Translations under genes and position numbers: made by a program | The notes under the pieces: model-generated | The model's database searches: none | Seen by the model: only the letters and a program-made list of their open reading frames with translations | Told to the model about the DNA's origin: nothing | Shown: positions 7,590-43,824 of the stretch, in pieces | Position numbering within the stretch: position 1 is the stretch's first letter | Layout of the letters: each line of letters opens with the position of its first letter | Virus record (IMG/VR): IMGVR_UViG_3300046529_000282 | Span: 1-44,583 of that record | Length of the DNA stretch: 44,583 nucleotides | Reading direction: 5' to 3' (one strand) | Source of the DNA: a virus

Positions 7590-8130
7590 ATTCACTAAAG
7601 AGCAGTGGGCTGACCCAGAGTACCGCGCTCGAATGAAAGAGCGGGACGCCAAGACCAAGCAGATGCGCAAGGATGATCCTTGGGCCATTAAGTCTTGGGG
7701 CGTCCCGCAGAACAAAAAAGGCAAGAAGACACCCGCAGAGCGCAAGGCCGCAAAGGCCAAGGCCATCAAGCAATGGCGCGCTGCCCACAAACTTGCCGAC
7801 AAATATTTGGATTACATGAAACGCACAGACCAAGCACCATCCGATATGGACGTGACAGTCGTGGATAAGCCGGGAGTTATCCCCCACACCGAAATGGTTG
7901 TACCGGATAGCGACGAAGAGAAGGCCGTATTGGCCCTCCGAGAGCTGTTCCTATTAGCTATCGGCCCGACTGCAATCCCAGAGAAGATCAAAGCAGCTAA
8001 CGCTGTACTTGCTTACACCAAACCCAAACCGGAGAGCAGCACTAAGGTGCGCGTTGAGAAGGCTGAAGACTTCCTCGACCTAATCGCGGAAGTACGAGCC
8101 CCTAATGACGATGACGCCGAAGCAGATTGA
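7576..8130 (+). CDS. Probable terminase small subunit
   Basis: A 184-residue, very basic then acidic protein immediately before the large terminase, overlapping it by 26 bp. The N-terminal half is Lys/Arg-rich and helical (QNKKGKKTPAERKAAKAKAI), suited to DNA binding. The C-terminal half (PEKIKAANAVLAYTKPKPES) is like the region where many small terminases have a helix ending in KPKPE. Small terminases recognise the packaging site and regulate the motor. The assignment rests mainly on position and this weak similarity. Confidence 0.6.
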   Translation: MAETKFTKEQWADPEYRARMKERDAKTKQMRKDDPWAIKSWGVPQNKKGKKTPAERKAAKAKAIKQWRAAHKLADKYLDYMKRTDQAPSDMDVTVVDKPGVIPHTEMVVPDSDEEKAVLALRELFLLAIGPTAIPEKIKAANAVLAYTKPKPESSTKVRVEKAEDFLDLIAEVRAPNDDDAEAD

Positions 8131-9757
8131 GACGCGAAAGCGCCTCCGCGATGACTTCGCCTTTTACTGCCAAAACTGCGTAAAGATCAGAACCAAAGAC
8201 GGCACCATTGCCCCGCTGATCCTCAATCGAGTGCAGAAGCGTTTTGCCGAGCGGATCATCGATCAACAGGAGGCCACAGGCAAGGTCCGCTTCGTTGTCG
8301 TCAAGGCACGACAGCAGGGACTGAGCACCGTTATCTCCGCATGGCAGTATTGGTGGCTTAGCCAGCGCAAGGCCCAGAAGGGTCTCGTTATGGCCCACGT
8401 TGCCGAGAGCACCACGACGCTCTTCGACATGTACCACCGTATTCACCAGAACGTCCCGAAGATTGTCCAGCCGTCTACTAAATACTCGTCCCGTACTGAG
8501 TTGGTGTTCTCTGCGCTAGACAGCGGTTTGCGAGTGGCTACGGCGGGCGGCAAAGGCGTTGCTCGCGGCGAAACGTTTACCACTGTCCATCTGTCCGAGG
8601 TGGCCTTCTGGCCCGACACGTTCGCACAGAACAACTTCAACGGTCTCATTCAAGCCGTGCCCGACAAGCCAGGTACAGCTGCGTTCCTTGAGAGCACAGC
8701 TAACGGTATGACCGGCGTGTTCTACGAGCAGTACAAAGTCGCCAAGAGTGGCGAGAGCGGCTACGAGCTGTTCTTCAGCGCGTGGGTAGAGAGCGACGAT
8801 TACCGCGACTCCACTGTCCCCGCCAACTTCGTGCGGGTACCTGAAGAGGAAGCCATAGTCGAGCTAGCTAAGCGGCTCTACGACATCGACGTGGACAACG
8901 AGCAGCTGTGGTGGCGCAGGCGAAAGATTGCCCTCAACGGCGCGGACATGTTCAAGCAGGAATATCCGCTGACCCCCGAGGAAGCATTCATCTCGACCGG
9001 CCGCCCTATCTTCAATCCCGACTACATCGTTGAGCGACTGAAGACCCCTAAGACGCCGATCAAGACGATGGCTGTCGAGGAGGTCTACGACCACGATACT
9101 GGAAAGCGATTACCGCTACGCAAGCTACGGGAACATCCCCGAGGCGAGCTTAAGGTCTACCGCGAACGCGACCCGAAGGAAACTTACACCATCGGCGCCG
9201 ACGTGGGCATGGGACTACGAGCGGGCGTCAAAGGGCGCCCCAGCGATCCCAGTGTTGCGCAGATTCTCGATAGCCAGCTACGGCAAGTCGCGGTGTGGCG
9301 CGGCACTGTTCACCCTGACGTGTTCGCTGACATCCTTATAGCGCTCGGTTACCACTACAACGAAGCCCTGCTCGTTCCTGAGCGAAACAACCATGGCCTT
9401 GTAACTTGCGTAGAGCTAAGGGACCAGCAGTACCCTAACATCTATTTGGATGTGACTGAGGGTACCGTTGAAGTCGATAAAGAGACATTGAACCTCGGCG
9501 TTTTTACGTCCGAGAAGACGAAGCCGCTGATGATCGACAAGCTTCGCGCCTTCGACCGTAACAAAGAAATTGAAATTAACGACACGACTACCCTCGAAGA
9601 GATGCTTCAATTCGTCGTAACCGAAAGCGGTAAGATGGAGGCGGAAGGAGGCGCGAACGACGATACAGTCATGGCGCTAGCATTGGCGGCATATGCCAGC
9701 GAGGGGAAATGGACCCCCGTTGAAAACATCGAAGAACTCTACGTCAGAGCCGTCTGA
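8105..9757 (+). CDS. Terminase large subunit
   Basis: The 550-residue DNA-packaging motor. The ATPase half has a Walker A-like KARQQGLST (about 68-76) and the acidic strand TTVHLSEVAFW in the Walker B position, with coupling motif FLESTANG. The nuclease half carries IGADVGMG (about residue 360), PERNNHG and a late aspartate pair in GANDDTVMALALA, which fits the RNase H-like metal site of terminase nucleases. The length is typical. It overlaps both the small subunit gene and the HNH gene that follows. The sequence type suggests a different terminase lineage from T7 gp19. Confidence 0.92.
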   Translation: MTMTPKQIETRKRLRDDFAFYCQNCVKIRTKDGTIAPLILNRVQKRFAERIIDQQEATGKVRFVVVKARQQGLSTVISAWQYWWLSQRKAQKGLVMAHVAESTTTLFDMYHRIHQNVPKIVQPSTKYSSRTELVFSALDSGLRVATAGGKGVARGETFTTVHLSEVAFWPDTFAQNNFNGLIQAVPDKPGTAAFLESTANGMTGVFYEQYKVAKSGESGYELFFSAWVESDDYRDSTVPANFVRVPEEEAIVELAKRLYDIDVDNEQLWWRRRKIALNGADMFKQEYPLTPEEAFISTGRPIFNPDYIVERLKTPKTPIKTMAVEEVYDHDTGKRLPLRKLREHPRGELKVYRERDPKETYTIGADVGMGLRAGVKGRPSDPSVAQILDSQLRQVAVWRGTVHPDVFADILIALGYHYNEALLVPERNNHGLVTCVELRDQQYPNIYLDVTEGTVEVDKETLNLGVFTSEKTKPLMIDKLRAFDRNKEIEINDTTTLEEMLQFVVTESGKMEAEGGANDDTVMALALAAYASEGKWTPVENIEELYVRAV

Positions 9758-10151
9758 TTCCAAGAAGAAATACTACGAGGCGAATAAAGAAGCCATCCTA
9801 GCTAAGAAGCGCACGCCTGAATACAAGGCGTATAAGCGTGCCTACGACAAGAAGTACCACGCTGGCAGGAAAAAAGACCCGGAGAAACAGCGCGCTGCGG
9901 GGCTGATGCGGCGGTACAGCTTATCAGTGTCGGAATGGGACTCCATGTTCTACCGGCAAGGGTTTTGTTGTGACATCTGCGGCCTGCATGACATCGACTA
10001 CTCAGGCCGATGGCACACCGACCATGATCACGCCACCGGCGAGGTTCGCGGCATTCTATGCCAGCACTGCAACTCCATGCTCGGCTACGCGCGAGATAAT
10101 AGTCACACATTGGCACAAGCTATACATTACTTAGAGAAACATAATGGCTAA
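9693..10151 (+). CDS. HNH endonuclease (endonuclease VII type), copy 1
   Basis: A 152-residue frame starting inside the end of the terminase gene; a TTG at 9720 is another possible start. The C-terminal half is the zinc-bound beta-beta-alpha nuclease of the T4 endonuclease VII family: CDICG, then TDHDHATGEVRG, ILCQHCNSMLG. The N-terminal half is basic with KYYEANKEAILAKK, typical of free-standing phage HNH enzymes. Such genes are usually homing endonucleases that cut phages lacking them. The end overlaps the portal start (ATGGCTAA), so the portal ribosome site lies inside this gene. Confidence 0.85.
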   Translation: MPARGNGPPLKTSKNSTSEPSDSKKKYYEANKEAILAKKRTPEYKAYKRAYDKKYHAGRKKDPEKQRAAGLMRRYSLSVSEWDSMFYRQGFCCDICGLHDIDYSGRWHTDHDHATGEVRGILCQHCNSMLGYARDNSHTLAQAIHYLEKHNG

Positions 10152-15593: not shown

Positions 15594-15634
15594 CGGGAGG
15601 GTGTCCGCGACGGCGGCCCCTCCCACCTTATTTA
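15594..15634 (+). terminator. Probable terminator after the capsid gene
   Basis: GGGAGGG (15595-15601) can pair with CCCTCCC (15618-15624), with an inner CCGC/GCGG pair, followed by ACC and TTATTTA. The T tract is broken, so read-through is likely. That would let the abundant capsid message stop while downstream genes get less. Confidence 0.6.
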
Positions 15635-16038
15635 TGCCTTACGCATCAAAAGAAGCGGCTAAGGCGTGGCGCGATAACAATAAAGAACAGCGCGCAGCCT
15701 ACCGCAAAGAATACTACGCTAAAAACAAAGCCAAAGAGAATGCGCGCTATAAGCCGGATGCTATGCGCGCCCGTCATCTACAACAGACCTATGGGATTAC
15801 CATAGAAGATTGGGATGCACTGTTTCTCTCTCAAGGTTCTGCCTGCGCTATATGCCGGGCCACTGACCCCGGCACTAAGTTGGGTTGGCATGTAGACCAT
15901 TGCCACAACACACAGGCAGTTCGCGGTATCCTCTGCGGAGGGTGCAATACCGGGCTTGGCCATTTTAGAGACAACAAAGACGCGCTTAGAAGCGCTGTTG
16001 AATACTTAGAGAAACATGAGCGCCGAGACGTTCTTTGA
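15634..16038 (+). CDS. HNH endonuclease (endonuclease VII type), copy 2
   Basis: I prefer ATG 15634 (134 residues) to the GTG at 15601, which lies inside the capsid terminator hairpin. The N-terminal half is basic with YRKEYYAKNKAKENARY. The nuclease half has CAICR, HVDHCHNTQAVRG and ILCGGCNTGLG, giving the four zinc cysteines and the DH..H catalytic set of the endonuclease VII family. It ends in YLEKHE like copy 1 and overlaps the next gene start at 16016. It is probably a homing endonuclease inserted between capsid and adaptor genes. Confidence 0.85.
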   Translation: MPYASKEAAKAWRDNNKEQRAAYRKEYYAKNKAKENARYKPDAMRARHLQQTYGITIEDWDALFLSQGSACAICRATDPGTKLGWHVDHCHNTQAVRGILCGGCNTGLGHFRDNKDALRSAVEYLEKHERRDVL

Positions 16039-22229: not shown

Positions 22230-22557
22230 CTCCGAATGTATTCAAGCTATCGAGGTCAATATCGACCACAGGGCCGTCTCCAAGCTGGTACTCGCCCCAC
22301 ACGCCTTCGTAGCTACTGAGGGACAACTGGATGCCAGCGGCGCGCAGGGCTTCCTTAAGAGGGCGGATGGCTTCCGCCTGTCTGTGCATCTCAGCCTCGT
22401 ACTGTGCCCGCTGGATCGCCCGGAGCCTCTCGGCCTCAGCCGCAGCTGCTTCCATCACAGCCCGCGTCTCAGCCTGCTCCTTGGCCTTCCGCGCGATGTA
22501 CTCGGGCGTGTTCATGAAGATCAGCAGCTCTCGCTGTTCAGGCGTTAGCTCGCGCAT
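22213..22557 (-). CDS. Hypothetical helical protein (114 aa)
   Basis: The start at 22557 overlaps the last 20 bp of the terC-like gene; an upstream in-frame ATG (22614) would overlap more. Most of the protein is one long Ala/Glu/Arg-rich helix (residues about 20-75, EQAETRAVMEAAAAEAERLR), probably coiled coil, followed by a short beta segment. No known function. Coupled to the TerC gene by overlap. Confidence 0.55.
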   Translation of the reverse strand: MRELTPEQRELLIFMNTPEYIARKAKEQAETRAVMEAAAAEAERLRAIQRAQYEAEMHRQAEAIRPLKEALRAAGIQLSLSSYEGVWGEYQLGDGPVVDIDLDSLNTFGDDDET

Positions 22558-23203
22558 CGTCCCTATCCAGTTTGCAGAACCAGCCCACACCCAGCACCGC
22601 GCCCACGCAGGCACACGCGGTCATGTAGTGATCGAGGTAAGGCGCAGCCCACGGGTCAGCCGCAATGATGCCGCCAGCCACCCAAGCCAACAGGCCCGCA
22701 CCGGCCCACACGAGGATCGGGAAGCGACCAATGACCTTGGAGATGATAGCGGCGCCAGCGATAACCAGCGGGATCGACAGGAGCACCCCGGTAGCCATGA
22801 GCAACATGGAGCCATGGGCCAGAGCGGCCACAGCAAGCACGTTATCGAGGCTCATGGAGGCGTCAGCCATAGCAATGGTGCCGATGGCTGCCGAGAGCGT
22901 AATGCGGCCCACAGCGTCCCCGTCTTCATCGTTGGCCTCTTCCACGAGGAGCCCATAGGCCACCTTGAGCAGAAAGAGGCCGCCAAGGAGCGACAGGCCA
23001 GGTACGCCAAGAAGGAACGCGGCGAAGAATGACATGACGACACGGAGCAGAACGGCCACCGCAGTGCCGCCGATGATGCCCCATTTCTGCTGATCAGCCG
23101 GGAGTCGGTTGGAGACGAGTGCGATAACGACCGCGTTGTCACCGGAGAGCAGAAGGTCGATCCACACGATACTGAGTAGCGCGGTCCAGAACATAGTATC
23201 CAT
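22538..23203 (-). CDS. TerC / YjbE-family integral membrane metal transporter
   Basis: A 221-residue membrane protein of the TerC superfamily, closest by eye to the YjbE branch. Members are linked to Mn2+ export or metal loading of exported enzymes, and TerC to tellurite resistance. About seven hydrophobic segments are seen. The family acidic motifs are intact: D16, G21-D22-N23 (LSGDNAVVIAL) and D114, D120-N121 (SLDNVLAVAALA). ATG 23203 is preceded by CAAAGGAATC, a good ribosome site; the frame is open further but would run into the folded leader. A TerB-like gene lies just upstream. Rare cargo for a phage of this type. Confidence 0.87.
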   Translation of the reverse strand: MDTMFWTALLSIVWIDLLLSGDNAVVIALVSNRLPADQQKWGIIGGTAVAVLLRVVMSFFAAFLLGVPGLSLLGGLFLLKVAYGLLVEEANDEDGDAVGRITLSAAIGTIAMADASMSLDNVLAVAALAHGSMLLMATGVLLSIPLVIAGAAIISKVIGRFPILVWAGAGLLAWVAGGIIAADPWAAPYLDHYMTACACVGAVLGVGWFCKLDRDDARANA

Positions 23204-23415
23204 GATGATTCCTTTGAATGAGATGTAAGCCGCCCCCATCCCCCTCCCGACTTCTACGGGCCGTGGGAAGGTCAACAACCTTTGGGGATGGGAGCGGTGC
23301 GGGGCTTTCACCCGCTGCGGCTCCATACAGGCAGAGCCTAGAGCCTCAGTTGGATCAGAGTGTTTCGCCGTCCAACCGGCGCCCGGTGCCCAGCGCTAGG
23401 CAGTCGGGGAATAAG
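23204..23415 (-). promoter_or_regulatory. Highly structured 5' leader of the terC-like gene (candidate riboregulator)
   Basis: This stretch of over 200 bases without a gene folds strongly on the minus strand. A 14-bp stem joins 23284-23297 with 23230-23243 (one G-T pair). Its 40-nt interior holds AAGGT/ACCTT and TCCC/GGGA hairpins. Upstream are GCGGG/CCCGC (23299-23315), a nested GGCTC/GAGCC stem with AGGC/GCCT inside (23319-23345), TTGGA/TCCAA (23350-23375), ACCGG/CCGGT (23375-23387) and TGCC/GGCA (23387-23402). TerC-family genes are known to follow the Mn2+-sensing yybP-ykoY riboswitch or the terC RNA motif. I do not see the yybP-ykoY GGGGAGTA and CTACC signatures. The terC motif remains possible. 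Confidence 0.6.
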
Positions 23416-23484
23416 TTAGCTACGCCACACGTAGACGAACAGCACGACCATGAACGGCATGGTCAACGCGGCCACGAGGCTCAT
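23416..23484 (-). CDS. Tiny membrane peptide (22 aa) between terB and the terC leader
   Basis: The ATG overlaps the terB stop (ATGA), suggesting translation by re-initiation. The product is almost one transmembrane helix (MSLVAALTMPFMVVLFVYVW plus a short RS tail). Its stop is directly before the terC leader. Position between a cytosolic TerB and an integral TerC suggests a small subunit of that system. It could also be a leader peptide for the RNA. Confidence 0.5.
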   Translation of the reverse strand: MSLVAALTMPFMVVLFVYVWRS

Positions 23485-23918
23485 CATGCGAGCAGCTTCG
23501 CGCCGTCCACGTTGAGCAGCTTGGCGATGTCGTTCAACACCACCTGCTCCTCAGCACCAATGCCTCCCTGATCTGCCGTGTCAGCCGCAATCAGGAACAC
23601 GTCCTGACGCACGGACACGTCACGGGTCATAAGGGCCTCAATGAAGCGCTTGTTCTCCATGCGGCCCGCGCGGGACTTGGCGCGGCTAAGGGCGCCGTTG
23701 AGCGCCTCTTCAATCTGCGAGGAGTTGTAGGACGCCGAGACGATGGGGTTGGCCTGCATACCCGCAATGGCAGCTTCGATTTCGCTGTCATCAATGGAGC
23801 CGTCGGCAGCGGTCACGTTGGCCGCAGCGCTAGCTACGCCCTTCAGGAACGCAGCGTCGCCAGCGTAGCTGTTGATGGTCTTTTTGGCGGTCGAGAGAAT
23901 GTTGGAGAGAAAGCTCAT
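23484..23918 (-). CDS. TerB-family protein
   Basis: A 144-residue helical cytosolic protein. Residues 24-50 (FLKGVASAAANVTAADGSID and following acidic EIE) and 105-130 (VFLIAADTADQGGIGAEEQV) are the two pseudo-repeats with acidic metal-binding loops that mark the TerB fold. In bacteria TerB works with membrane TerC and with TerD-type proteins in tellurite and stress response, and ter clusters are also tied to phage and colicin resistance. No TerD, TerA or TerZ is visible here. The gene is followed by the 22-residue peptide and the terC leader. Confidence 0.85.
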   Translation of the reverse strand: MSFLSNILSTAKKTINSYAGDAAFLKGVASAAANVTAADGSIDDSEIEAAIAGMQANPIVSASYNSSQIEEALNGALSRAKSRAGRMENKRFIEALMTRDVSVRQDVFLIAADTADQGGIGAEEQVVLNDIAKLLNVDGAKLLA

Positions 23919-23930
23919 TGTGTGTTCCTT

Positions 23931-24044
23931 TCAGAAGAACCAGCGAGAGAGGGGATAGCCGCGTGCGATTTTCACAGCGGCGGAAACGATGAAGACCACG
24001 CCCAAGAAGTCGAGGACGTGGTTAGCTACGACGGCAACGATCAT
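23931..24044 (-). CDS. Small membrane protein (37 aa)
   Basis: One hydrophobic helix (VLDFLGVVFIVSAAVKIA) and a basic aromatic tail. The ATG at 24044 overlaps the previous stop (TAATG). It is followed by terB 12 bp later. A role in the Ter module or in the membrane is possible but not shown. Confidence 0.55.
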   Translation of the reverse strand: MIVAVVANHVLDFLGVVFIVSAAVKIARGYPLSRWFF

Positions 24045-24190
24045 TAGATGTCCGCGAGGTGTTTGCCGAACACATAGACCAGCAGCGAAAACGCAGCGGT
24101 AACAAGTGCCGCCGTGATGCCGCCTTCGCTTGCTGCCGCAAGGGTCAACAGCCCGAAGGCCGTGATGGAGAGCTTTTCATTATTGGTCAT
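24044..24190 (-). CDS. Small membrane protein (48 aa)
   Basis: Two short hydrophobic segments (ITAFGLLTLAAASEGGITAA and LVTAAFSLLVYVFG). The start codon and ribosome site lie in the 24-bp direct repeat described at 24187-24210. It is overlapped with the next membrane gene, so a pair is likely. Function unknown. Confidence 0.55.
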   Translation of the reverse strand: MTNNEKLSITAFGLLTLAAASEGGITAALVTAAFSLLVYVFGKHLADI

Positions 24191-24430
24191 GGTGATTTCT
24201 TCAGTCCTCGCTGCTGATAGTGACGGAGCCGTGGTAGTCCTTCAGCCCAATCCAATTGTGGTAGTGGTAGCCGATGCTTGTTCCGGACGGGCCGTGGATC
24301 ACGGTCCCGTCGAAGGGGTCTTGCATCAGGACGATTTCACCTGCTGGCGCCACCTGTAGGCGCGGCCACGTTCCCAGCTTTGGCTTCTTGCATGTCGCTT
24401 CGGTCTTCATGGTGATTTCTTCAGTCCTCG
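24187..24430. repeat. 24-bp exact direct repeats flanking a 69-residue gene
   Basis: 24187-24210 and 24407-24430 are identical over 24 bases (from TCATGGTGATTTCTTC to the final AGTCCTCG on the plus strand), exactly 220 bp apart. Each covers a gene junction: stop, spacer and start region. In one copy it is intergenic, in the other it encodes the C-terminal GLKKSP of the HELLH protein. Recombination between them would precisely remove the 69-residue gene and keep the reading frames. Confidence 0.9.
24201..24410 (-). CDS. Hypothetical protein (69 aa) bounded by direct repeats
   Basis: Contains beta-rich segments (LQVAPAGEIVLMQDPFDG, SIGYHYHNWIGLKDYHGS) with several His and Tyr residues in YHYHNW. 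No family recognised. The exact 24-bp repeats at its two ends make it look like a single-gene cassette gained by duplication or recombination. It overlaps the metallopeptidase-like gene upstream by 4 bp. Confidence 0.55.
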   Translation of the reverse strand: MKTEATCKKPKLGTWPRLQVAPAGEIVLMQDPFDGTVIHGPSGTSIGYHYHNWIGLKDYHGSVTISSED

Positions 24431-29866: not shown

Positions 29867-30027
29867 AGATGGTCCGCAATCTGGATATGTCGCACATAAG
29901 CAACCAAATCCTTACGTCGATACGCCTTCACGGCCTGCTCCCCGTGCCAATAAGCGGCGTTAGCTCGACGGCAAAGCACCTGTTTCACTTCCGGGCTGAT
30001 CGCCGCGCTTAGTTCCTGCAATTTCAT
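29851..30027 (-). CDS. Hypothetical small protein (58 aa)
   Basis: I place the start at ATG 30027; the frame is open upstream to 30066. The sequence is basic and helical (LCRRANAAYWHGEQAVKAYR). It overlaps both the HNH gene end and the polymerase start. It could be the original neighbour of the polymerase, partly overlapped by the HNH insertion. Function unknown. Confidence 0.45.
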   Translation of the reverse strand: MKLQELSAAISPEVKQVLCRRANAAYWHGEQAVKAYRRKDLVAYVRHIQIADHLWSTW

Positions 30028-30439
30028 CTGTCTTCTCCAAATATGCAGCGGCAGCGCGTAGGACACCGGGGGTATCCTTCGCGTTACCTAGCATTAGGTT
30101 ACAGTGGTGACAGAGGACGCCACGTACCTTGCCGGTGCTGTGGTTGTGGTCCAAATGCCATTTTGTTTTGGTCTCAGGGGTAGTCGTTAGGCACACGGCG
30201 CACGCGAACCCTTGTGAGGCAAACAGCGCGTCGTATTCCTCCGGTGTGATTCCGTACTTGCTTTTTAGGTTCTGTTGTCGATTTACCCCGGGCCTCTGTC
30301 GGTACTTCTTGTTCGTCTCCCGGTGCCTGTCCTTATTGGCCGCGTACCAAGCTCTAGAGCGGGCCGACGCGCGCGCCTTACGTTCTTCTTCCGTTAGAAT
30401 GGGGCGCTGTCCTCTTCTGTTGTATGAGGATCGAAGCAC
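29960..30439 (-). CDS. HNH endonuclease (endonuclease VII type), copy 3
   Basis: A 159-residue protein related to the two plus-strand copies, with a basic N-terminal half (ARSRAWYAANKDRHRETN) and the nuclease signature CAVCL, HLDHNHSTGKVRG and VLCHHCNLMLG. It sits between primase-helicase and DNA polymerase, overlapping both neighbours (the primase end by 46 bp). It is a probable free-standing homing endonuclease. Its C-terminus continues past the YLEK seen in the other copies and ends in GALPSS. Confidence 0.85.
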   Translation of the reverse strand: MLRSSYNRRGQRPILTEEERKARASARSRAWYAANKDRHRETNKKYRQRPGVNRQQNLKSKYGITPEEYDALFASQGFACAVCLTTTPETKTKWHLDHNHSTGKVRGVLCHHCNLMLGNAKDTPGVLRAAAAYLEKTDEIAGTKRGDQPGSETGALPSS

Positions 30440-34317: not shown

Positions 34318-36831
34318 TTAGGCAAAGGCATACTTCGCCCGTTTGACTTCGTTAAGGTCCAGCTGACCCTTCGTCGGAAGCTGCGGCAGTCGCGTTTGGT
34401 TTGCTTCTGACAACTGAGCGCTTGCTGTAGAGCGTAGGCCAGATAAAAGGTCATCTCCTTGATACATCTGCACAAACTGCTCCCGAATGATCTGATTGAA
34501 CCGGGAAGCATTTGCCGGAAGGCAACCAAATGAGTCATGAACAGTCACGATGTCCGTAATGCCTTCGTCAGCGCACGCCCCCACTGTCAGGAGCAAATGG
34601 CTGGCGTCCAGCGAATGCACCCAATTGGGAGCGATGGACTGTTGGCACTTGCGTTTCTGTAGTGTCGCCTCGTCTCCCGTGGCCACGTTGACCTTGATGC
34701 GCTCGTTATGCAGCCACAGCCGAAGAACCTTCGTCGTAGCGTCATGGTAGCGGTTGATGCACGGGATGCCTGCCGGTGTGATCCAGCTAACCGGCTTCCC
34801 CTCGTGTGCCATAACGCCCGCCAGAGCCTTCAGGAAGTCCATGGCCTCAGCGGGCTTGCGGACTACCTCGGTGATCGCCGCGTATGCCACACGGCCCATA
34901 TAGCGAGCCGCAGCCGCCTGCTCCTTGACGGTCCCGAAGTGATGGGGCGTCTTGTTGCGCACGGCATCGGCTTGCAGTGGTGCCATCAGGTCCTCAAAGA
35001 ACTGATCGCCCATCCCGTTCGCCTCGGAGCTATAGCAGAACGTCATCGTTGACCTCTTCAACATCTTCCTGTCGATGCCGCCTTTGTAGCTAAGGAACAG
35101 CTGGGCAAAGTGGCGCTTCTTTTCGTCCTGGCCCCGTGCGTCCTCCTCGACCATACGGCGGGCAACCGCCGCCACAATGGCGTAGATGTCCTGCGGGATT
35201 GCGTTGTCCGTGAGGTTCACGAAGCGGCCTTCCTCAGCCAGCATCGCCCCCGCCATGTGCTGAAGGCCCGAACAGCTACCGTCGAAGGAAACAGGCAGAT
35301 GGCACACTCGCGAGGCAGAGTCGTCCAAACACGCAACAAGCTCGCGGGTAGCAGCGAGGAACAGGAACGGGCTGTCTGCATTCGTCCATCCCAGATTGGT
35401 CAGCGGCGCCCTCACGTAGCCCCTCAGCGTCTCGATGTTCTCTCTCACCCATCGCACTCTCTCCTTCAGTGGTTTCTTGTCGAGCCCAATCCCATCGGCG
35501 CCCTTTTGGGCCCAACAGTTAGCTAAGTGTACTGATAACCAATATGTACCCTTTCGGCCAATCGGAGCCCCGTTCCTAAACAGAAACAGGCTCCGCACAT
35601 GATCGCCCCGCTGGAAATTGAAGCGCGGCAACGGATACACGCGGCCCCGAAAGTCCATAGTCATTCCCGTGTAGAACTCGGGCGCCTCGGCCAGCCGGTG
35701 GGCCTCGGCCATGTCCAGAGCCAACAGCGTCAAGTCGCTATGGCGCTGCCGGTTGAGCTTCTGCGCGGAGTAGCGCTCCTCGCTAGCTAGCTTGCGCTCG
35801 TCCTGGCCCAGCGCTTGCCACTGCTCCTCCGTGAGCTTGGGCGGCACCTCGATTTTGTCGGGCACAGTGAACCCGGGGACTACGACACCGTTCGCCCTCA
35901 CCTGATCCATCACGTCCAGCAGCCAAGTGTTGATCTTGAACGGGACGGCTTGCAGCGTGTTGATGCCCTTGAGCGCGGGCGCCATTGTGCCGTCAGCTAT
36001 CGCCTTCTTGACCTCGGCAATCTGATCGTTGTTGTGGGCCTTCAGGAGCGAGGCTGTCTTGAACACGCTCGCATCCTCGGAGGGGCGCTGCTTGTAGCTA
36101 ACCCACGGCTGCGGCGCGGTCATTCGCGGGAGCCAAACCGGGCGCCGCAAAATCATGTCCTTGATCGAGTCCGCCATGAGCCCGTGCGCCTCCTCGGACA
36201 CAGTGAGCACGCGGTACTTCTCTGGGAGCCCGAGAGACTTGTTCCATTCGGTGAACTCCTCCCAGCGGAACACATCGGGCAGCCCCTGCGTGAGCAGGTC
36301 AGAGCACCACACGCCAGCAATCACGCACTCCTCTTTGCTCCACTCGTCACTGGTGAACCCGGCTTTCTTGGCCACAGCGCGGGCCGCCGCGTGGCGCATC
36401 TTCTGGTTAGAGTGCCTCTTCTCCGCGTATTGGCTAGCGCGCTCCGCGAGCTTCTTATTGGTTTTCAGGAGGTTTGCATGGAAGCATTCGGCCTCAAGGT
36501 TTTCAGCAAACATCTTGAACGCCTTCACCTGCTTCTTTGGCTGGCTGGCAACTACATGCAGGCCGGTCTGCAAGCAGACGAGAGCTACAATCTCAGGCTC
36601 TAGCTGCCTCAGCATCCGCTCAAGGTTATATTCTTGGGAGCTAGCGTGGCATTTGGTTTTCCACTTCTCCGTAAGGTACTCAGTGAGGCGGGGTAGCAGC
36701 TGTCCGCTAAGGGCCATTGCCCCGGTGGTCGATCCCTTGCCGAAGCTGGCAGCTTGTCGCTTGTCCTTCTTCTTCAGGGAAGCTGCGGCTAGCTGGTATT
36801 CCCGAGCCTCAGCTATCTGCATCTGTTCCAA
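34318..36831 (-). CDS. Single-subunit phage RNA polymerase (T7-like)
   Basis: Transcribes phage genes from phage-specific promoters. I choose TTG 36831 (837 residues) because AAGGGG lies six bases upstream; a TTG at 36906 would give 862. Numbered from 36906, the active site is D542 (SFDGSCSGLQHM), K617 (KMLKRSTMTFCYSS, with Y625) and D791 (TVHDSFG). The specificity-loop region precedes SIAPNWVHSLDASH, and the C-terminus is YAFA, as in T7 (FAFA). It is close to T7 RNA polymerase in size (883). Nearby is the integrase gene, an order seen in integrase-bearing T7-like phages. Confidence 0.95.
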   Translation of the reverse strand: MEQMQIAEAREYQLAAASLKKKDKRQAASFGKGSTTGAMALSGQLLPRLTEYLTEKWKTKCHASSQEYNLERMLRQLEPEIVALVCLQTGLHVVASQPKKQVKAFKMFAENLEAECFHANLLKTNKKLAERASQYAEKRHSNQKMRHAAARAVAKKAGFTSDEWSKEECVIAGVWCSDLLTQGLPDVFRWEEFTEWNKSLGLPEKYRVLTVSEEAHGLMADSIKDMILRRPVWLPRMTAPQPWVSYKQRPSEDASVFKTASLLKAHNNDQIAEVKKAIADGTMAPALKGINTLQAVPFKINTWLLDVMDQVRANGVVVPGFTVPDKIEVPPKLTEEQWQALGQDERKLASEERYSAQKLNRQRHSDLTLLALDMAEAHRLAEAPEFYTGMTMDFRGRVYPLPRFNFQRGDHVRSLFLFRNGAPIGRKGTYWLSVHLANCWAQKGADGIGLDKKPLKERVRWVRENIETLRGYVRAPLTNLGWTNADSPFLFLAATRELVACLDDSASRVCHLPVSFDGSCSGLQHMAGAMLAEEGRFVNLTDNAIPQDIYAIVAAVARRMVEEDARGQDEKKRHFAQLFLSYKGGIDRKMLKRSTMTFCYSSEANGMGDQFFEDLMAPLQADAVRNKTPHHFGTVKEQAAAARYMGRVAYAAITEVVRKPAEAMDFLKALAGVMAHEGKPVSWITPAGIPCINRYHDATTKVLRLWLHNERIKVNVATGDEATLQKRKCQQSIAPNWVHSLDASHLLLTVGACADEGITDIVTVHDSFGCLPANASRFNQIIREQFVQMYQGDDLLSGLRSTASAQLSEANQTRLPQLPTKGQLDLNEVKRAKYAFA
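34422..34445 (-). promoter_or_regulatory. Candidate phage promoter element, copy 1
   Basis: Read on the minus strand, the 24 bases begin TATCTGGCCTAC and end GCTCTACAGCAA. They are identical to copy 2 and lie in the 3' end of the RNA polymerase gene, pointing at the replication genes. Proposed phage RNA polymerase promoter. Confidence 0.5.
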
Positions 36832-36845
36832 TCTATTCCCCTTCG

Positions 36846-36869
36846 TTGCTGTAGAGCGTAGGCCAGATA
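36846..36869 (-). promoter_or_regulatory. Candidate phage promoter element, copy 2
   Basis: Identical 24 bases, 2424 bp from copy 1, ending 15 bp before the preferred RNA polymerase start. If the longer 36906 start is used it lies inside the coding region, in the same frame as copy 1 (both would read GLRSTA). Confidence 0.5.
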
Positions 36870-36946
36870 TCGGCCAAGTGGTTGGTTTTGTTGGATAGTT
36901 GCCCAAAACAGTCCGTCTGCTATGGGCGCCCTCGACGTTCCGGGCT

Positions 36947-36974
36947 TATATAGTGAGGGTTAATTAGATTGCAA
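36947..36974 (-). promoter_or_regulatory. Promoter upstream of RNA polymerase with a T3-like core
   Basis: The minus strand reads AATTAACCCTCACTATATA (36965-36947). Its first 15 bases equal the start of the classical T3 promoter, and CACTATA is the T7-family core. It also fits a host promoter, TTGCAA (36974-36969), 16 bp, TATATA. The sequence ATTGC-N5-GCAAT over the -35 could be an operator. Confidence 0.6.
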
Positions 36975-37018
36975 TGGGCAATAGTCTCCCATTCGGTTCC
37001 GTCCTCCGTAGGAGCGTT

Positions 37019-38170
37019 TTATTCATCAGCGTCCCTAGCAAAATCAATGACTTGCGCGGAGCGTTTAGCCAACTTTTTGGCCCTGTCCCCCGCGTACTTT
37101 TCAACTTTTTTCTCAACCTGAAGATGATCCTCAAGGTCTAGCTCGTCATACTCATCATGCACATCATCGTCCATATGCCCCAGTAATTGCTTGCGAATTC
37201 CCTTTTCGACACCCGACTTCCTAAGACGCCTTACACGTGCATGGCGCAGAGAGTGAATGACGATGTTGCCCGAGACCCCCGCGCGTTTCACGGCTCGCTT
37301 GAAACAAGATAGCAATCGGTTACCATTCGGCACCTGCCCGGTAGCTATCAAAGCGCGGATGTTCTTAGCCAAATCGGCCGGAAGGGTTACAATGCGTCCC
37401 TTTCCGTTCTTAGTCTGTCCCTTATGCAGCTGGATGACCCCACGGAGAACAAGCGTTCCGTCTTCGTCCTCTACCTGTACTATGGTGATCTGTTCGGGCC
37501 TCAGCTTCTCGCAGAGTTCCCCACGGCGCAGACCAGTGTGCATCATGACCTCGACGCACAGGGCCTCTAGCTCCTCCCCGGCCTCGCGCATTAGCCGCAG
37601 GATCAGGGCATCCTGTTCGGGCAGGAGGACATCGCGGTCCCGCTTGGTTTCTTCCTCGTCCAGATAGGGCGCAGCTGGGGGCCGCTCGGCCATAATCTCT
37701 TCCTGATGGGCAAAGGCCAGAACCGCGCTCGCGGCCGACAGGTACCGGTTGATGGTGGCATTGCTAAGGGGCTCCCCGTACCTTGCGGCGCTCTTGGAGC
37801 GACCCTGTAGGCTCTCGGTGATCTTCCCCAGCGCGGCCCTAGAGACCCGCTGTACCTCATAGGAACCGATCACGGCAACGCAGTATTCCAGGCGCTGCAT
37901 CAGGGAGCGGTCCTTGCCCTTCTTCCACTTCCCCCGGGGCCCGCCCTTAGCCTTGGCTAGCTCAGTGACCTCAGCGAACGTGGGGGCCCCGGTGCTGGGG
38001 GCGCCGTCAATGATCGTCGGGGGCTCCTCGCCCGTTAGCTTCACGTATAGCTCATAGCCTTCGGCATCCTTCTTGCGGTCGAACGTGCGGCGGAACCGCT
38101 TGCCCTTGACGACAACTTCGCCAAGGAACTTACCGGTCGGCTTGCCCTGCTTCTTCTCAGCGTAGGCCAT
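37019..38170 (-). CDS. Tyrosine recombinase (integrase)
   Basis: A 383-residue site-specific recombinase. Residues 14-45 look like an arm-binding domain (KGKRFRRTFDRKKDAEGYEL). A SAM-like core-binding domain spans about 80-165. The catalytic domain has R215 (HTGLRRGE), lysine near 250-257 (LHKGQTKNGKGR), H306 and R309 (HSLRHARV), H332 (LLGHMDDD) and the nucleophile Y341 (HDEYDEL). All catalytic residues are present, so the enzyme may be active. I cannot identify the attachment site; no tRNA-like sequence is next to it. It precedes RNA polymerase. Confidence 0.92.
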   Translation of the reverse strand: MAYAEKKQGKPTGKFLGEVVVKGKRFRRTFDRKKDAEGYELYVKLTGEEPPTIIDGAPSTGAPTFAEVTELAKAKGGPRGKWKKGKDRSLMQRLEYCVAVIGSYEVQRVSRAALGKITESLQGRSKSAARYGEPLSNATINRYLSAASAVLAFAHQEEIMAERPPAAPYLDEEETKRDRDVLLPEQDALILRLMREAGEELEALCVEVMMHTGLRRGELCEKLRPEQITIVQVEDEDGTLVLRGVIQLHKGQTKNGKGRIVTLPADLAKNIRALIATGQVPNGNRLLSCFKRAVKRAGVSGNIVIHSLRHARVRRLRKSGVEKGIRKQLLGHMDDDVHDEYDELDLEDHLQVEKKVEKYAGDRAKKLAKRSAQVIDFARDADE

Positions 38171-41442: not shown

Positions 41443-42297
41443 TTAAGCCGCCAGCTGCGCGCCGCCGTATTGGGCGAGCGTTTCCTTCAGCCATTTGACG
41501 GGCTCATTGACCATTGGATCTTTGGCGTGCGCGGCGCCAACGTAGAGAACCTCTCCGGTAATGCCCAAGGCGTTTGTGTACAATTCGCGCGCGGTCCGCT
41601 GGTAATGGTCAAAATCACCATGGGGCCAACCGCCCATGTAACCGCCCTTAGCAATGTGGTTGCATGAGGCATAGCCAAGCCCGCGCGTCACACACGGGTC
41701 TGTCAGCATGTGAGCAGCGCGCGCAAGATCAAGCGGCGCCGTGTCCAGCTTAGTGAGAACGTGCGAGCCACGGCCATAATCACCAAGACAAATCGCGGTC
41801 CAAATCTCAACCGGGCGATTAGCTGACAGCAAGCGGACCAAGGCGAGCAAGCTAGCGCCGCGCTTGCGCATAGTCTCAACGCTAATCATCGCTGACAGCG
41901 TCATTGACACGATGATGGTTAGAGGCCCCTGCTCTGTCGCAACGCGTTCGCGCCGCCGCATGGCCATTGGGTGGCCAGCGAGGAACGCGGGGACACAGGG
42001 GGAGCCGCCAACAACGTCAAGGCGATTGCGCCACACTGGCGAGACGAATTGGTCCGCCTCAAGTTTGTCTAGCAGCAACTCGGAGGCAGCAACTCCGGAC
42101 AAATCACCGTTGCGCACCTGCTCTAGAGCAACATCGTATCGCTTGCTTCCATACCAGCGGTCCCCACTAGACGCGCCCTTGCGCTCCGATTGCTCCGCAG
42201 GGACAGAGGCAGCCAATTCGGCAAAACCTTGCATGTCGCACACTGCGAAATAGTCCGTTCCGCCCTTAAGGCCGCGACGCTCAGATTTGGTAATCAT
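41443..42297 (-). CDS. MoxR-associated phage protein (DUF7192-like)
   Basis: A 284-residue protein with LSANRPVEIWTAICLGDYGR and HMLTDPCVTRGLGYASCNHI, and AAHAKDPMVNEPVKWLKETL near the end. I recall similar proteins under DUF7192, often paired with MoxR-like AAA ATPases in phages. The middle (LTIIVSMTLSAMISVETMRK) has the strand pattern of a von Willebrand A-like domain, which would fit a MoxR partner. This is my inference. It follows the ATPase gene and has its own strong promoter (42354-42381) with an inverted repeat. Confidence 0.6.
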   Translation of the reverse strand: MITKSERRGLKGGTDYFAVCDMQGFAELAASVPAEQSERKGASSGDRWYGSKRYDVALEQVRNGDLSGVAASELLLDKLEADQFVSPVWRNRLDVVGGSPCVPAFLAGHPMAMRRRERVATEQGPLTIIVSMTLSAMISVETMRKRGASLLALVRLLSANRPVEIWTAICLGDYGRGSHVLTKLDTAPLDLARAAHMLTDPCVTRGLGYASCNHIAKGGYMGGWPHGDFDHYQRTARELYTNALGITGEVLYVGAAHAKDPMVNEPVKWLKETLAQYGGAQLAA

Positions 42298-42324
42298 GTC
42301 CGTTAGTCCCTTCGCTATCTGCTC

Positions 42325-42342
42325 AGCCGCGCCAGCGGCGCT
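42325..42342. repeat. 18-bp hairpin sequence repeated in inverted orientation
   Basis: AGCCGCGCCAGCGGCGCT is the exact reverse complement of 40376-40393. GCCGC and GCGGC inside it can form a stem. It is in the leader of the DUF7192-like gene, between its promoter and ribosome site. Confidence 0.65.
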
Positions 42343-42353
42343 GAACTGCCCGA

Positions 42354-42398
42354 ATTCTATAGGTTGCCATTAGCCTGTCAATACCAATGGCAACCTAT
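42354..42398 (-). promoter_or_regulatory. Near-consensus promoter inside a 13-bp perfect inverted repeat
   Basis: On the minus strand TTGACA (42381-42376), 16 bp, TAGAAT (42359-42354). ATAGGTTGCCATT (42359-42371) pairs exactly with AATGGCAACCTAT (42386-42398) across 14 nt, so the repeat encloses the -35 and spacer. A repressor bound here would block the promoter. As an RNA stem it could instead end the MoxR message, but no T tract follows. Confidence 0.75.
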
Positions 42399-42410
42399 TT
42401 GCAGATTATT

Positions 42411-43679
42411 TTAGGCAGCATCCACCATGCGGCGCTGTTCGGGTGTCAACTCTGCCAGATAGGTCAACTCGGCCGCTTCATCTGCCGTCATGCCAGCGGC
42501 GATGATAGCCGCACCGGCTTGCGTCATGCGCGGATCGATTTGCACCTTAACGCCCGCCTTCTGAGCATTAGCGCGTGCCTTCTGGACACGCTTGGCCCAT
42601 GCCTCATTGCCGGAGATATCGCGCTCCAAAGCTTCATCGTAACCCCAGCTAATGCGGACCGGGAAGCGAGACTTGATTGCGCCGTCAAGGCGATTGCGGC
42701 CGACGAATTCAGCGGTAGCGCCGTTTCCGAACGTGTTGCCAGCGGCGATGATGATGCTATCCGGGTGGCGATCAACCAAGGCATCAGGGAATTCGGTTGA
42801 ACCATTGGCCATTGCGCCAGCCAGCGCCAACAGGGGCGAGTTGTCCGAGCTATCAATCTCGTCAAACAGATAGACCGCAGGACGCCCAAATGCCTTGCGG
42901 AAAGGCGTTTCGTGATAGTTGCCAGCTGCATCCTTGAAGCCAAGCAATTGGTGATCCATCGAGATAGCGCCGTTAGTGTAGAATTCGAGGCCAAGCGCCT
43001 TTGCCAGCTGCTCAACAGCGTGCGTCTTGCCGCTACCGGTCGGGCCCACAAGCATAATGTTTGGGTGCCGACCATTGGCCTGACGTGAGCTAGCAACCTT
43101 CAGCAGCTGCTCAAACTTGGGATGAGCGCGGCCTTCAACCTTGAACGTGCTGCCATCGTATTTCTTAATCTCAATGGTGCGCACCGGGGAATGCTTGGCG
43201 ATAAGGTCGGGCAGGCTATCAGCGAAGATATGCAGATGTTCGCGGACAACCTTGGACACGGCGCTCTCATCCATCGGAGCGCTACCCTGAGACTTGGCGA
43301 GCGCTTCAGCCAGCAATGCAGCTGCCGTGGCCACGTCTGACGCGGCGTTTTCATTGGTATTCATGGTGAAGGTCTCTTCCTTAGTGAAAGCCGATTGGCC
43401 GTTGTTGCTGTTGGAGTTGTTGGACTGCGCTGCGCTAGCAGTGCCTTGGGAGAGGCGAAGGATATTGAGCGAAGCGTCGCTGGTATCGTTCCAAGCGCCC
43501 TCAAGCTCAGCGAATGAGAGGCGAGCGGCATAGGTGGATAGCACGCCATTAGCGGACAGCCACTTGCGGAGCGCCAGCTTAGCGGGATGCTTTACGTCCT
43601 GTGCCATCAGGGAGAATGACAGCCCGCCCCGAACAGCATTGATTGCGAGGGATGTGGGCATTTCGTTGTTGGTGGTCAT
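42411..43679 (-). CDS. MoxR-like AAA+ ATPase
   Basis: A 422-residue ATPase; the start at 43679 has CCGGAGC in ribosome-site position. The first 130 residues are unusual, with an Asn/Ser linker (QSNNSNSNNG). The AAA core has Walker A LVGPTGSGKTHAVEQLAK, Walker B AVYLFDEIDSSD and sensor IIIAAGNTFGNG, with an arginine-finger type RNRLDGAIKSRF. MoxR-group proteins act as chaperones that insert cofactors or remodel partners, usually with a von Willebrand A protein. It is the first gene of the leftward arm, so expressed early. The partner is probably the next gene. Confidence 0.85.
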   Translation of the reverse strand: MTTNNEMPTSLAINAVRGGLSFSLMAQDVKHPAKLALRKWLSANGVLSTYAARLSFAELEGAWNDTSDASLNILRLSQGTASAAQSNNSNSNNGQSAFTKEETFTMNTNENAASDVATAAALLAEALAKSQGSAPMDESAVSKVVREHLHIFADSLPDLIAKHSPVRTIEIKKYDGSTFKVEGRAHPKFEQLLKVASSRQANGRHPNIMLVGPTGSGKTHAVEQLAKALGLEFYTNGAISMDHQLLGFKDAAGNYHETPFRKAFGRPAVYLFDEIDSSDNSPLLALAGAMANGSTEFPDALVDRHPDSIIIAAGNTFGNGATAEFVGRNRLDGAIKSRFPVRISWGYDEALERDISGNEAWAKRVQKARANAQKAGVKVQIDPRMTQAGAAIIAAGMTADEAAELTYLAELTPEQRRMVDAA

Positions 43680-43824
43680 GTCGTGCTCCGGTGTGTTCAT
43701 GTGGTTCGCCGTTGCCCCCATGAACACCATCTGGCACAGAGTTGCAATAGCTAATCGTTGCCCAAAGCTAACTTTAGGCCGAATGCATAACAGGGATTCC
43801 AAGGGCGCATAGCTCTGCCCTATT

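Follow-up and report, generated by a model that had tools for sequence, protein, structure and literature searches.

A phage gene set joining terB, a small membrane peptide and a manganese-exporter-like terC

Anatomy of the locus

In a soil-type phage and its uncultured relatives, terB, a membrane peptide and a manganese-exporter-like terC form a tight gene set. The sequence studied is an IMG/VR virus record of 44,583 bases, the whole of which we call the window; other records are referred to by L numbers. A previous, sequence-only reading had described TerB, a peptide, a leader and TerC as one gene set at 22538-23918, and the anatomy of the locus confirmed a set that goes beyond chance; its interpretation found partial support. 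On sequence grounds, the best reading of the locus is a module resembling the tci genes of phage P1 joined to a YjbE-type TerC of the Mn2+-exporter kind, in carriers that mostly bear an integrase, with a biochemical function that we infer. Transcription runs on the minus strand in the order 48-aa ORF, 37-aa ORF, terB, 23-aa ORF, leader, terC. The features are as follows.

22538..23203, minus strand: terC of the YjbE subfamily (TIGR03717), 221 aa, an integral membrane protein, ATG at 23203 and stop at 22538 (profiles, motif conservation)
Just upstream of the terC ATG at 23203, minus strand: AAAGGA Shine-Dalgarno sequence
23204..23415, minus strand: leader of 212 nt between terB/peptide and terC (fold against shuffles; Rfam without match)
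23231..23298, minus strand: long hairpin of very high stability, separating the conserved RNA domain from the terC ribosome site (predicted fold, alignment)
23297..23409, minus strand: conserved four-hairpin RNA domain of the leader (alignment, pair counts, covariance-model matches)
23416..23487, minus strand: single-TM microprotein MMSLVAALTMPFMVVLFVYVWRS, TciB-like by layout, 23 aa, or 22 aa from the second ATG (shuffles, enrichment after phage terBs)
23484..23918, minus strand: terB-like gene (TciA/TerB, PHROG_632), 144 aa (profiles, conserved residues)
23931..24044, minus strand: 37-aa single-TM microprotein M37 MIVAVVANHVLDFLGVVFIVSAAVKIARGYPLSRWFF, 12 nt upstream of terB, conserved
24044..24190, minus strand: 48-aa hydrophobic ORF overlapping the M37 start (relatives 42-52%)

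The TerC and TerB-like proteins

The TerC call held at curated thresholds, the protein scoring 184 bits against the TIGR03717 YjbE profile (cut-off 134.8) and 138.3 bits against the Pfam TerC family PF03741 (cut-off 27.8); the Alx profile TIGR03718 did not match it. TerC residues D16, D22-N23, D114 and D120-N121 are invariant across 19 sequences, and D39, G40, E46, D113 and E124 of TerB are invariant across 25, in agreement with the earlier statement that both proteins keep their acidic metal motifs. Extending TerC in frame at its N-terminus, to 262 aa, was rejected, as this would span the non-conserved leader. TerC proteins export Mn2+ and metalate exported enzymes (PMC10550928, PMC12096827), and the window protein is probably a divalent-cation exporter of the LysE superfamily, with Mn2+ as putative substrate.

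The window TerB scored 17.3 bits against Pfam PF05099, under the cut-off of 24.4, and because of this score we name it TerB-like. It matched PHROG_632 "tellurite resistance" with E 1.3e-18. PF05099 was matched at E<=0.1 by all 13 aligned relatives (best 2.5e-6) and at E<=0.01 by 21 of the 25 proteins in a wider phage TerB set, and a profile from 25 phage TerB proteins matched the solved Klebsiella KP-TerB structure 2JXU with E 1.9e-12. By these profile comparisons the window TerB family is homologous to known TerB, so that the original call stood for the family, through PHROG_632, the 13 relatives and 2JXU, but not for the protein's own Pfam score. The AlphaFold model is all-helical (mean pLDDT 81), and the best PDB match in a fold search with it, the tellurite resistance protein 2ou3, was not significant (E 0.51). 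The net charge of TerB ranges from -4 to -9 across the aligned set. A search of genome contigs with the patterns used returned no bacterial relatives of the window TerB.

Pairing of terB and terC across phages

To survey the pairing, IMG/VR was scanned with TerB and TerC alignments and the surrounding DNA was then searched with HMMs. terB followed by terC, adjacent and on one strand, was found in 30 of 30 close contigs (TerB 66-94% identical), whose IMG ids fall in one narrow range and which may derive from one project. They represent at least two phage kinds, one of ~46 kb that shares the T7-like RNA polymerase and the terminase of the window, and one of 72-119 kb without detectable copies of either. 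The pair is also kept in three distant phages (35-52% identity). In L075 (TerB 35%) it is flanked by a RecA-like gene and an ORF that by eye resembles a single-strand binding protein; L124 keeps the pair with a TerC 52% identical; and in L125 (TerC 48%) the terC start codon lies 12 nt past the terB stop, with a tmRNA alongside. This tmRNA, of alphaproteobacterial type and directly upstream of terB-terC on the 72-kb contig (3033-3304), is possibly an integration site. Sequence comparison thus strongly supports terB-terC as a unit, as had been proposed, in the close contigs, the three distant phages and, independently, Vibrio phage BUCT194 (see below), but the pairing is not universal in phages: for most distant phage terBs, terC was missing from the surrounding 4 kb and, in the records searched throughout, from the entire record, four distant terCs had no terB, and in Rhizobium phage RHph_I1_18 both genes are present ~18 kb apart. 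The sequence-only reading had named relatives with the two genes apart as counter-evidence, and these phages provide it in part.

None of the 80 nearest bacterial YjbE loci has a terB within 3 kb, and inheritance of the pairing from such loci was rejected on this count. TerD (PF02342) was found neither in the window nor in 20 other records (21 in total, some of which may be fragments), in line with the claim that no TerD-type gene is present. A tyrosine recombinase was detected in 14 of the 15 carriers tested, which is consistent with lysogeny.

A membrane peptide follows phage terBs

The ATG of the peptide at 23487 overlaps the terB stop codon TGA (23484-23486), the overlap string being ATGATGA. 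The peptide had been read as 22 residues coupled to terB; it is 23 or 22 aa depending on the ATG used, and both shuffling and enrichment support it as a real gene. Its length and hydrophobicity were reproduced in 8 of 1000 dinucleotide shuffles, and among the 14 peptides tested, similar ORFs arose in 0-1.9% of shuffles per case. Most close relatives carry a hydrophobic ORF of 23-31 aa across the terB stop (ATGA, GTGA, TTGA or TGATG); these peptides fall into at least five dissimilar sequence families, usually with a basic final residue or tail. Distant phage terBs without terC have a like arrangement with longer ORFs, mostly 35-54 aa.

Of 38 phage terBs, 20 are followed by a small TM ORF starting -4 to +10 nt from the stop; for the other ORF ends of these loci the count is 23 of 637 (Fisher p 1.5e-16). 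Within +60 nt of the stop the counts are 27 of 38 and 37 of 637 (p 4e-22). The 38 distinct TerBs are partly non-independent and these p-values are therefore overstated; the pattern still covers ~10 dissimilar peptides. The peptide is absent in nine terB-terC phages (L017, L021, L023, L060, L063, L065, L075, L124 and L125) and is thus not essential for pairing; in the peptide-less phages the first membrane gene behind terB is terC.

Two records, L002 (5828-5979) and L004 (6432-6583), have two mutually overlapping membrane peptides in tandem behind terB. A 77-aa coiled-coil-like ORF (MFSKIKAFF...) is encoded between the peptide and terC in L006 (6532-6765), L007, L016, L020, L026 and L067. The L006 copy matches PHROG_2380 with E 3e-8, and a counterpart is missing from the window and L028.

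Microproteins upstream of terB

M37, which the sequence-only reading had not noted, has the strong motif NH.LD..G......KI.R.YP..RWFF. It was found in practically all close terB-terC contigs and adjoins terB in most of them; in the L017, L021 and L023 groups it lies 2-5 kb from terB. A dedicated scan reported M37 in three isolate-derived contigs (L239, L240 and L246) where TerB and TerC were undetected, and relatives occur in the named phages Bradyrhizobium phage BDU-MI-1 and EBPR siphovirus 2. M37 is found in phages without detected terB or terC, so we rejected it as an obligate member of the module, to which, by these matches, it is not specific. In EBPR siphovirus 2 the gene after M37 is annotated as TRAP-type transport, and a similar-looking gene follows M37 in L017. 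The M37 relatives, together with TerC neighbours in Hyphomicrobiales, hint at a Bradyrhizobium-like host. The 48-aa hydrophobic ORF is probably accessory, its relatives (42-52%) being encoded upstream of terB in L016 and L020 and elsewhere in other phages. Two neighbouring small genes of the window have identical 24-nt repeats (24187-24210 and 24407-24430) over their ribosome sites and start codons.

A structured leader in the window subgroup

Folded with its flank, the leader reached an MFE of -92.6 kcal/mol (z -2.6), and 0 of 200 shuffles were equally stable. A domain of ~113 nt with four hairpins is common to four distinct phages (the window, L007, L026/L027 and L028/L072). When the structure of this domain was given by hand, 98.1% of cells paired and four pairs were changed on both sides, while control structures slid by 1-3 columns yielded no two-sided pair changes; compensatory changes fell in three of the four hairpins. 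The covariance model of the domain retrieved only the same four phages among the loci searched, and the idea that all relatives carry the leader was rejected. The long hairpin at 23231..23298 is kept in L028, replaced in L007 and absent in L026.

Searching Rfam with the leader gave no family at the gathering threshold, and yybP-ykoY and the terC RNA (RF03067) were unmatched even at E<=10; a known Rfam family, these two included, was thus rejected. Occurrence as a dispersed phage element was likewise rejected, as the leader patterns appeared only in terB-terC phages, and the other 13 matches of a looser 17-mer were unrelated sequence without TerB or TerC. Sequestration of the terC ribosome site by the 5′ end of the leader (AUUCC/GGAAU in the window MFE structure) was also discarded, since the alignment shows it not kept in L028 (AUGCC/GGAAA).

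Other lineages have other sequence before terC. A different three-hairpin leader is present in L006, L016 and L020; terminator-like hairpins, with or without a U-run, were read by eye in L003, L015, L065, L071 and the L017 group; and L008 and L125 have nearly no gap. The terminator-like hairpins (for example GGGGUCCUUCGGGGCCCCUUUUU; L003 5880-5990) lie between terB or the peptide and terC and leave scant room for a promoter. Their position suggests that terC is attenuated relative to terB in these relatives. The replacement of the leader in other lineages points to local regulation and not to a core part of the module. Of the folded leader of about 210 nt that had been counted as part of the module, the length (212 nt), the structure and its sharing by four related phages stood, but it is replaced elsewhere. 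The leader RNA probably tunes terC in the window subgroup only, and a riboswitch role would be a guess from four related sequences. At L151 2764-2819, in a Phreatobacter MAG, a terC RNA (RF03067) lies upstream of a YjbE-type gene and is a possible bacterial counterpart of the phage leader.

Comparison with known systems

The wider TerB search reached phages P1, P7, D6 and JLK-2012, and the P1 genes give the strongest parallel, one that the sequence-only reading had not drawn. In P1 and P7, temperate phages like the carriers here appear to be, the TerB-like tciA is followed by tciB with a one-base overlap, and the genes occupy an accessory position; terB and the peptide of the window overlap too. 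The differences lie in the following genes: TciB is a hydrophobic protein of 54 aa belonging to PHROG_1470, and the third gene, tciC, encodes 35 hydrophobic residues with no TerC there, whereas the window carries a YjbE-type TerC. PHROG_1470 is matched by P7 and JLK-2012 TciB but not by the 23-aa window peptide, which is therefore tci-like by layout and not a member by sequence. JLK-2012 shares the tciA-tciB layout, and in Agrobacterium phage JP1 and Paracoccus phage Pyei1 terB is likewise followed by a small membrane ORF. The database label of the PHROG_1470 TciB family reads "TciB-like inhibition of cell division or resistance to colicin", and the P1/P7 tciA-tciB-tciC genes go under "tellurite or colicin resistance or inhibition of cell division".

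The bacterial terZABCDEF operon contains TerB and TerC homologues, for which a TerC-TerB complex was reported (PMC12054061); unlike it, the window has no TerD by PF02342 and a TerC of the short YjbE type. Otagovirus-type Ter modules (TelA-vWA-TerC(YjbE)-TerD in Pseudomonas phages Pyxpy02 and PPSC2) also bear a YjbE-subfamily TerC on a phage, with TelA, vWA and TerD as partners in place of TerB and a microprotein, and Acinetobacter phage vB_AciJM_313 has the order TerD-vWA-TerC. Vibrio phage BUCT194, with TerB-TerC/Alx-TerB, likewise has a phage TerB adjoining TerC, but its TerC belongs to the Alx subfamily (348 bits) and the ORF after its second terB is not membrane-peptide-like. The yybP-ykoY Mn2+ riboswitch and the terC RNA (RF03067) are, like the phage leader, structured leaders upstream of TerC-family genes, but the phage leader matches neither. 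"Minimal Ter system", the frame of the sequence-only reading, is thus not the best one, as TerC is of the YjbE and not the Alx type and the layout fits P1 tciAB.

Possible function

We propose, with a probability of about 0.5, that the locus encodes an accessory, moron-type membrane module of the phage, in which a peptide-anchored TerB acts on a Mn2+-exporter-type TerC to the benefit of the host cell. The peptide has a basic C-terminal tail in the majority of members and would anchor the acidic cytosolic TerB at the inner membrane beside TerC. There TerB may sense or buffer metal, or serve as a scaffold, and would control TerC, which would export a divalent cation, probably Mn2+. The outcome would be altered metal or envelope homeostasis of the infected or lysogenic cell, protecting the cell and the phage's investment from metal, oxidative or envelope attack, and possibly from rival phages and colicins. 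The leader may adjust TerC expression in the window subgroup, and the design would be that of P1 tciAB with an added TerC.

The module reading draws on the adjacency seen in 30 of 30 close relatives and again in three distant phages with other backgrounds, and on the enrichment of peptides after terB with matching layouts in P1/P7/JLK-2012, JP1 and Pyei1; the anchor draws on the charge of TerB (-4 to -9) facing mostly basic peptide tails. The sequences themselves show the gene content and adjacency, the enrichment of peptides and the leader structure; from published Ter work and the anatomy of the locus we infer the membrane-anchored TerB acting on an exporter, that is, the physical complex, the transport and the benefit to the cell. 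A TerC-TerB complex was reported to lie at the centre of the bacterial Ter system, and terC deletion in K. pneumoniae to reduce Zn, Mn and phage resistance (PMC12054061). Against the module reading stand the nine peptide-less terB-terC phages, the many distant terBs without terC and the possible origin of the 30 contigs in one project. Also against it, in a zinc-sensitive strain the ter-operon TerC of K. pneumoniae reportedly did not function as a Zn/Mn effluxer (PMC12054061), YjbE is itself an uncharacterised protein (PMC12096827), and P1 tciA, tciB and tciC were non-essential in a CRISPRi screen (PMC10695390).

A less probable alternative is superinfection exclusion or colicin defence, in which TerB, the peptide and TerC would remodel the inner membrane so that DNA entry or pore formation is blocked; metal transport would be only a side effect. 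Ter genes have been linked with inhibition of phages and with colicin resistance (Whelan 1995, as cited in PMC12054061), action against superinfecting phages has been proposed for the Ter genes of jumbo phages (PMC7824862), the PHROG_1470 label names colicin resistance, and most carriers have an integrase. However, the window genes lie downstream of replication genes on the same strand and not beside an immunity gene, and the invariant metal-type acidic motifs of TerC argue that transport matters.

It seems unlikely that the locus provides Mn2+ control for the phage's own or secreted/membrane metalloenzymes during infection, with TerC as a translocon metallochaperone and no role in competition. 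Bacillus TerC proteins do export Mn2+ and metalate exoenzymes (PMC10550928), and YjbE-type TerC is kept beside very different neighbours, TelA-vWA-TerC-TerD in the Otagovirus-type modules and TerB here, but no phage metalloenzyme client was recognised next to TerC, and its consistent partner is TerB, which such control does not need.

A bolder extension of the module reading, which we regard as improbable, is that a new phage cis-regulatory RNA senses a metal or infection signal and controls TerC, and that TerB works only via a membrane partner, mostly a TciB-like microprotein and otherwise TerC. If true, a sensor RNA together with a TerB needing a membrane partner would make a sensor-anchor-exporter unit not described before. 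Neutral hitch-hiking of terB, peptide and terC as ordinary accessory genes kept together by common descent is very improbable: many of the close relatives also group as one phage clade by other genes, and all fall within a narrow range of metagenome ids, but the genes stay adjacent at 35-52% identity in three phages of different kinds, pairing extends to another TerC subfamily in BUCT194, and none of the 80 nearest bacterial YjbE loci shows it within 3 kb.

To our knowledge, TerB, TerC and the P1 tci genes have long been annotated as "tellurite or colicin resistance", and their natural role is not clear. The compact phage unit, pared down to TerB, one TerC and a short membrane peptide, sets apart what may be their working core. 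The strong association of phage terB with a small membrane ORF behind it offers a testable role, that of membrane partner to TerB, for P1 tciB and many unannotated ORFs, and the window module makes the function of the little-understood P1 tci genes easier to test.

Other features of the window

Other genes of the window encode an integrase, endonuclease I, a DNA primase/helicase and a T7-like RNA polymerase that shares 29.7% identity with the nearest named phages, and by these genes the phage is an integrase-bearing T7-like lineage far from named phages. At 34318-38170 (minus strand) and 8105-9757 (plus strand), the T7-like RNA polymerase adjoins the tyrosine integrase and the terminase is only ~34% identical to that of the nearest named phage. 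At 41443-43802 (minus strand) an AAA ATPase (PHROG_249, labelled porphyrin biosynthesis) adjoins a DUF7192 protein. Three ORFs read by eye like HNH/endonuclease VII-type nucleases (9693-10151 and 15601-16038, plus strand; 29960-30439, minus strand), and these are dispersed among the structural and replication genes.
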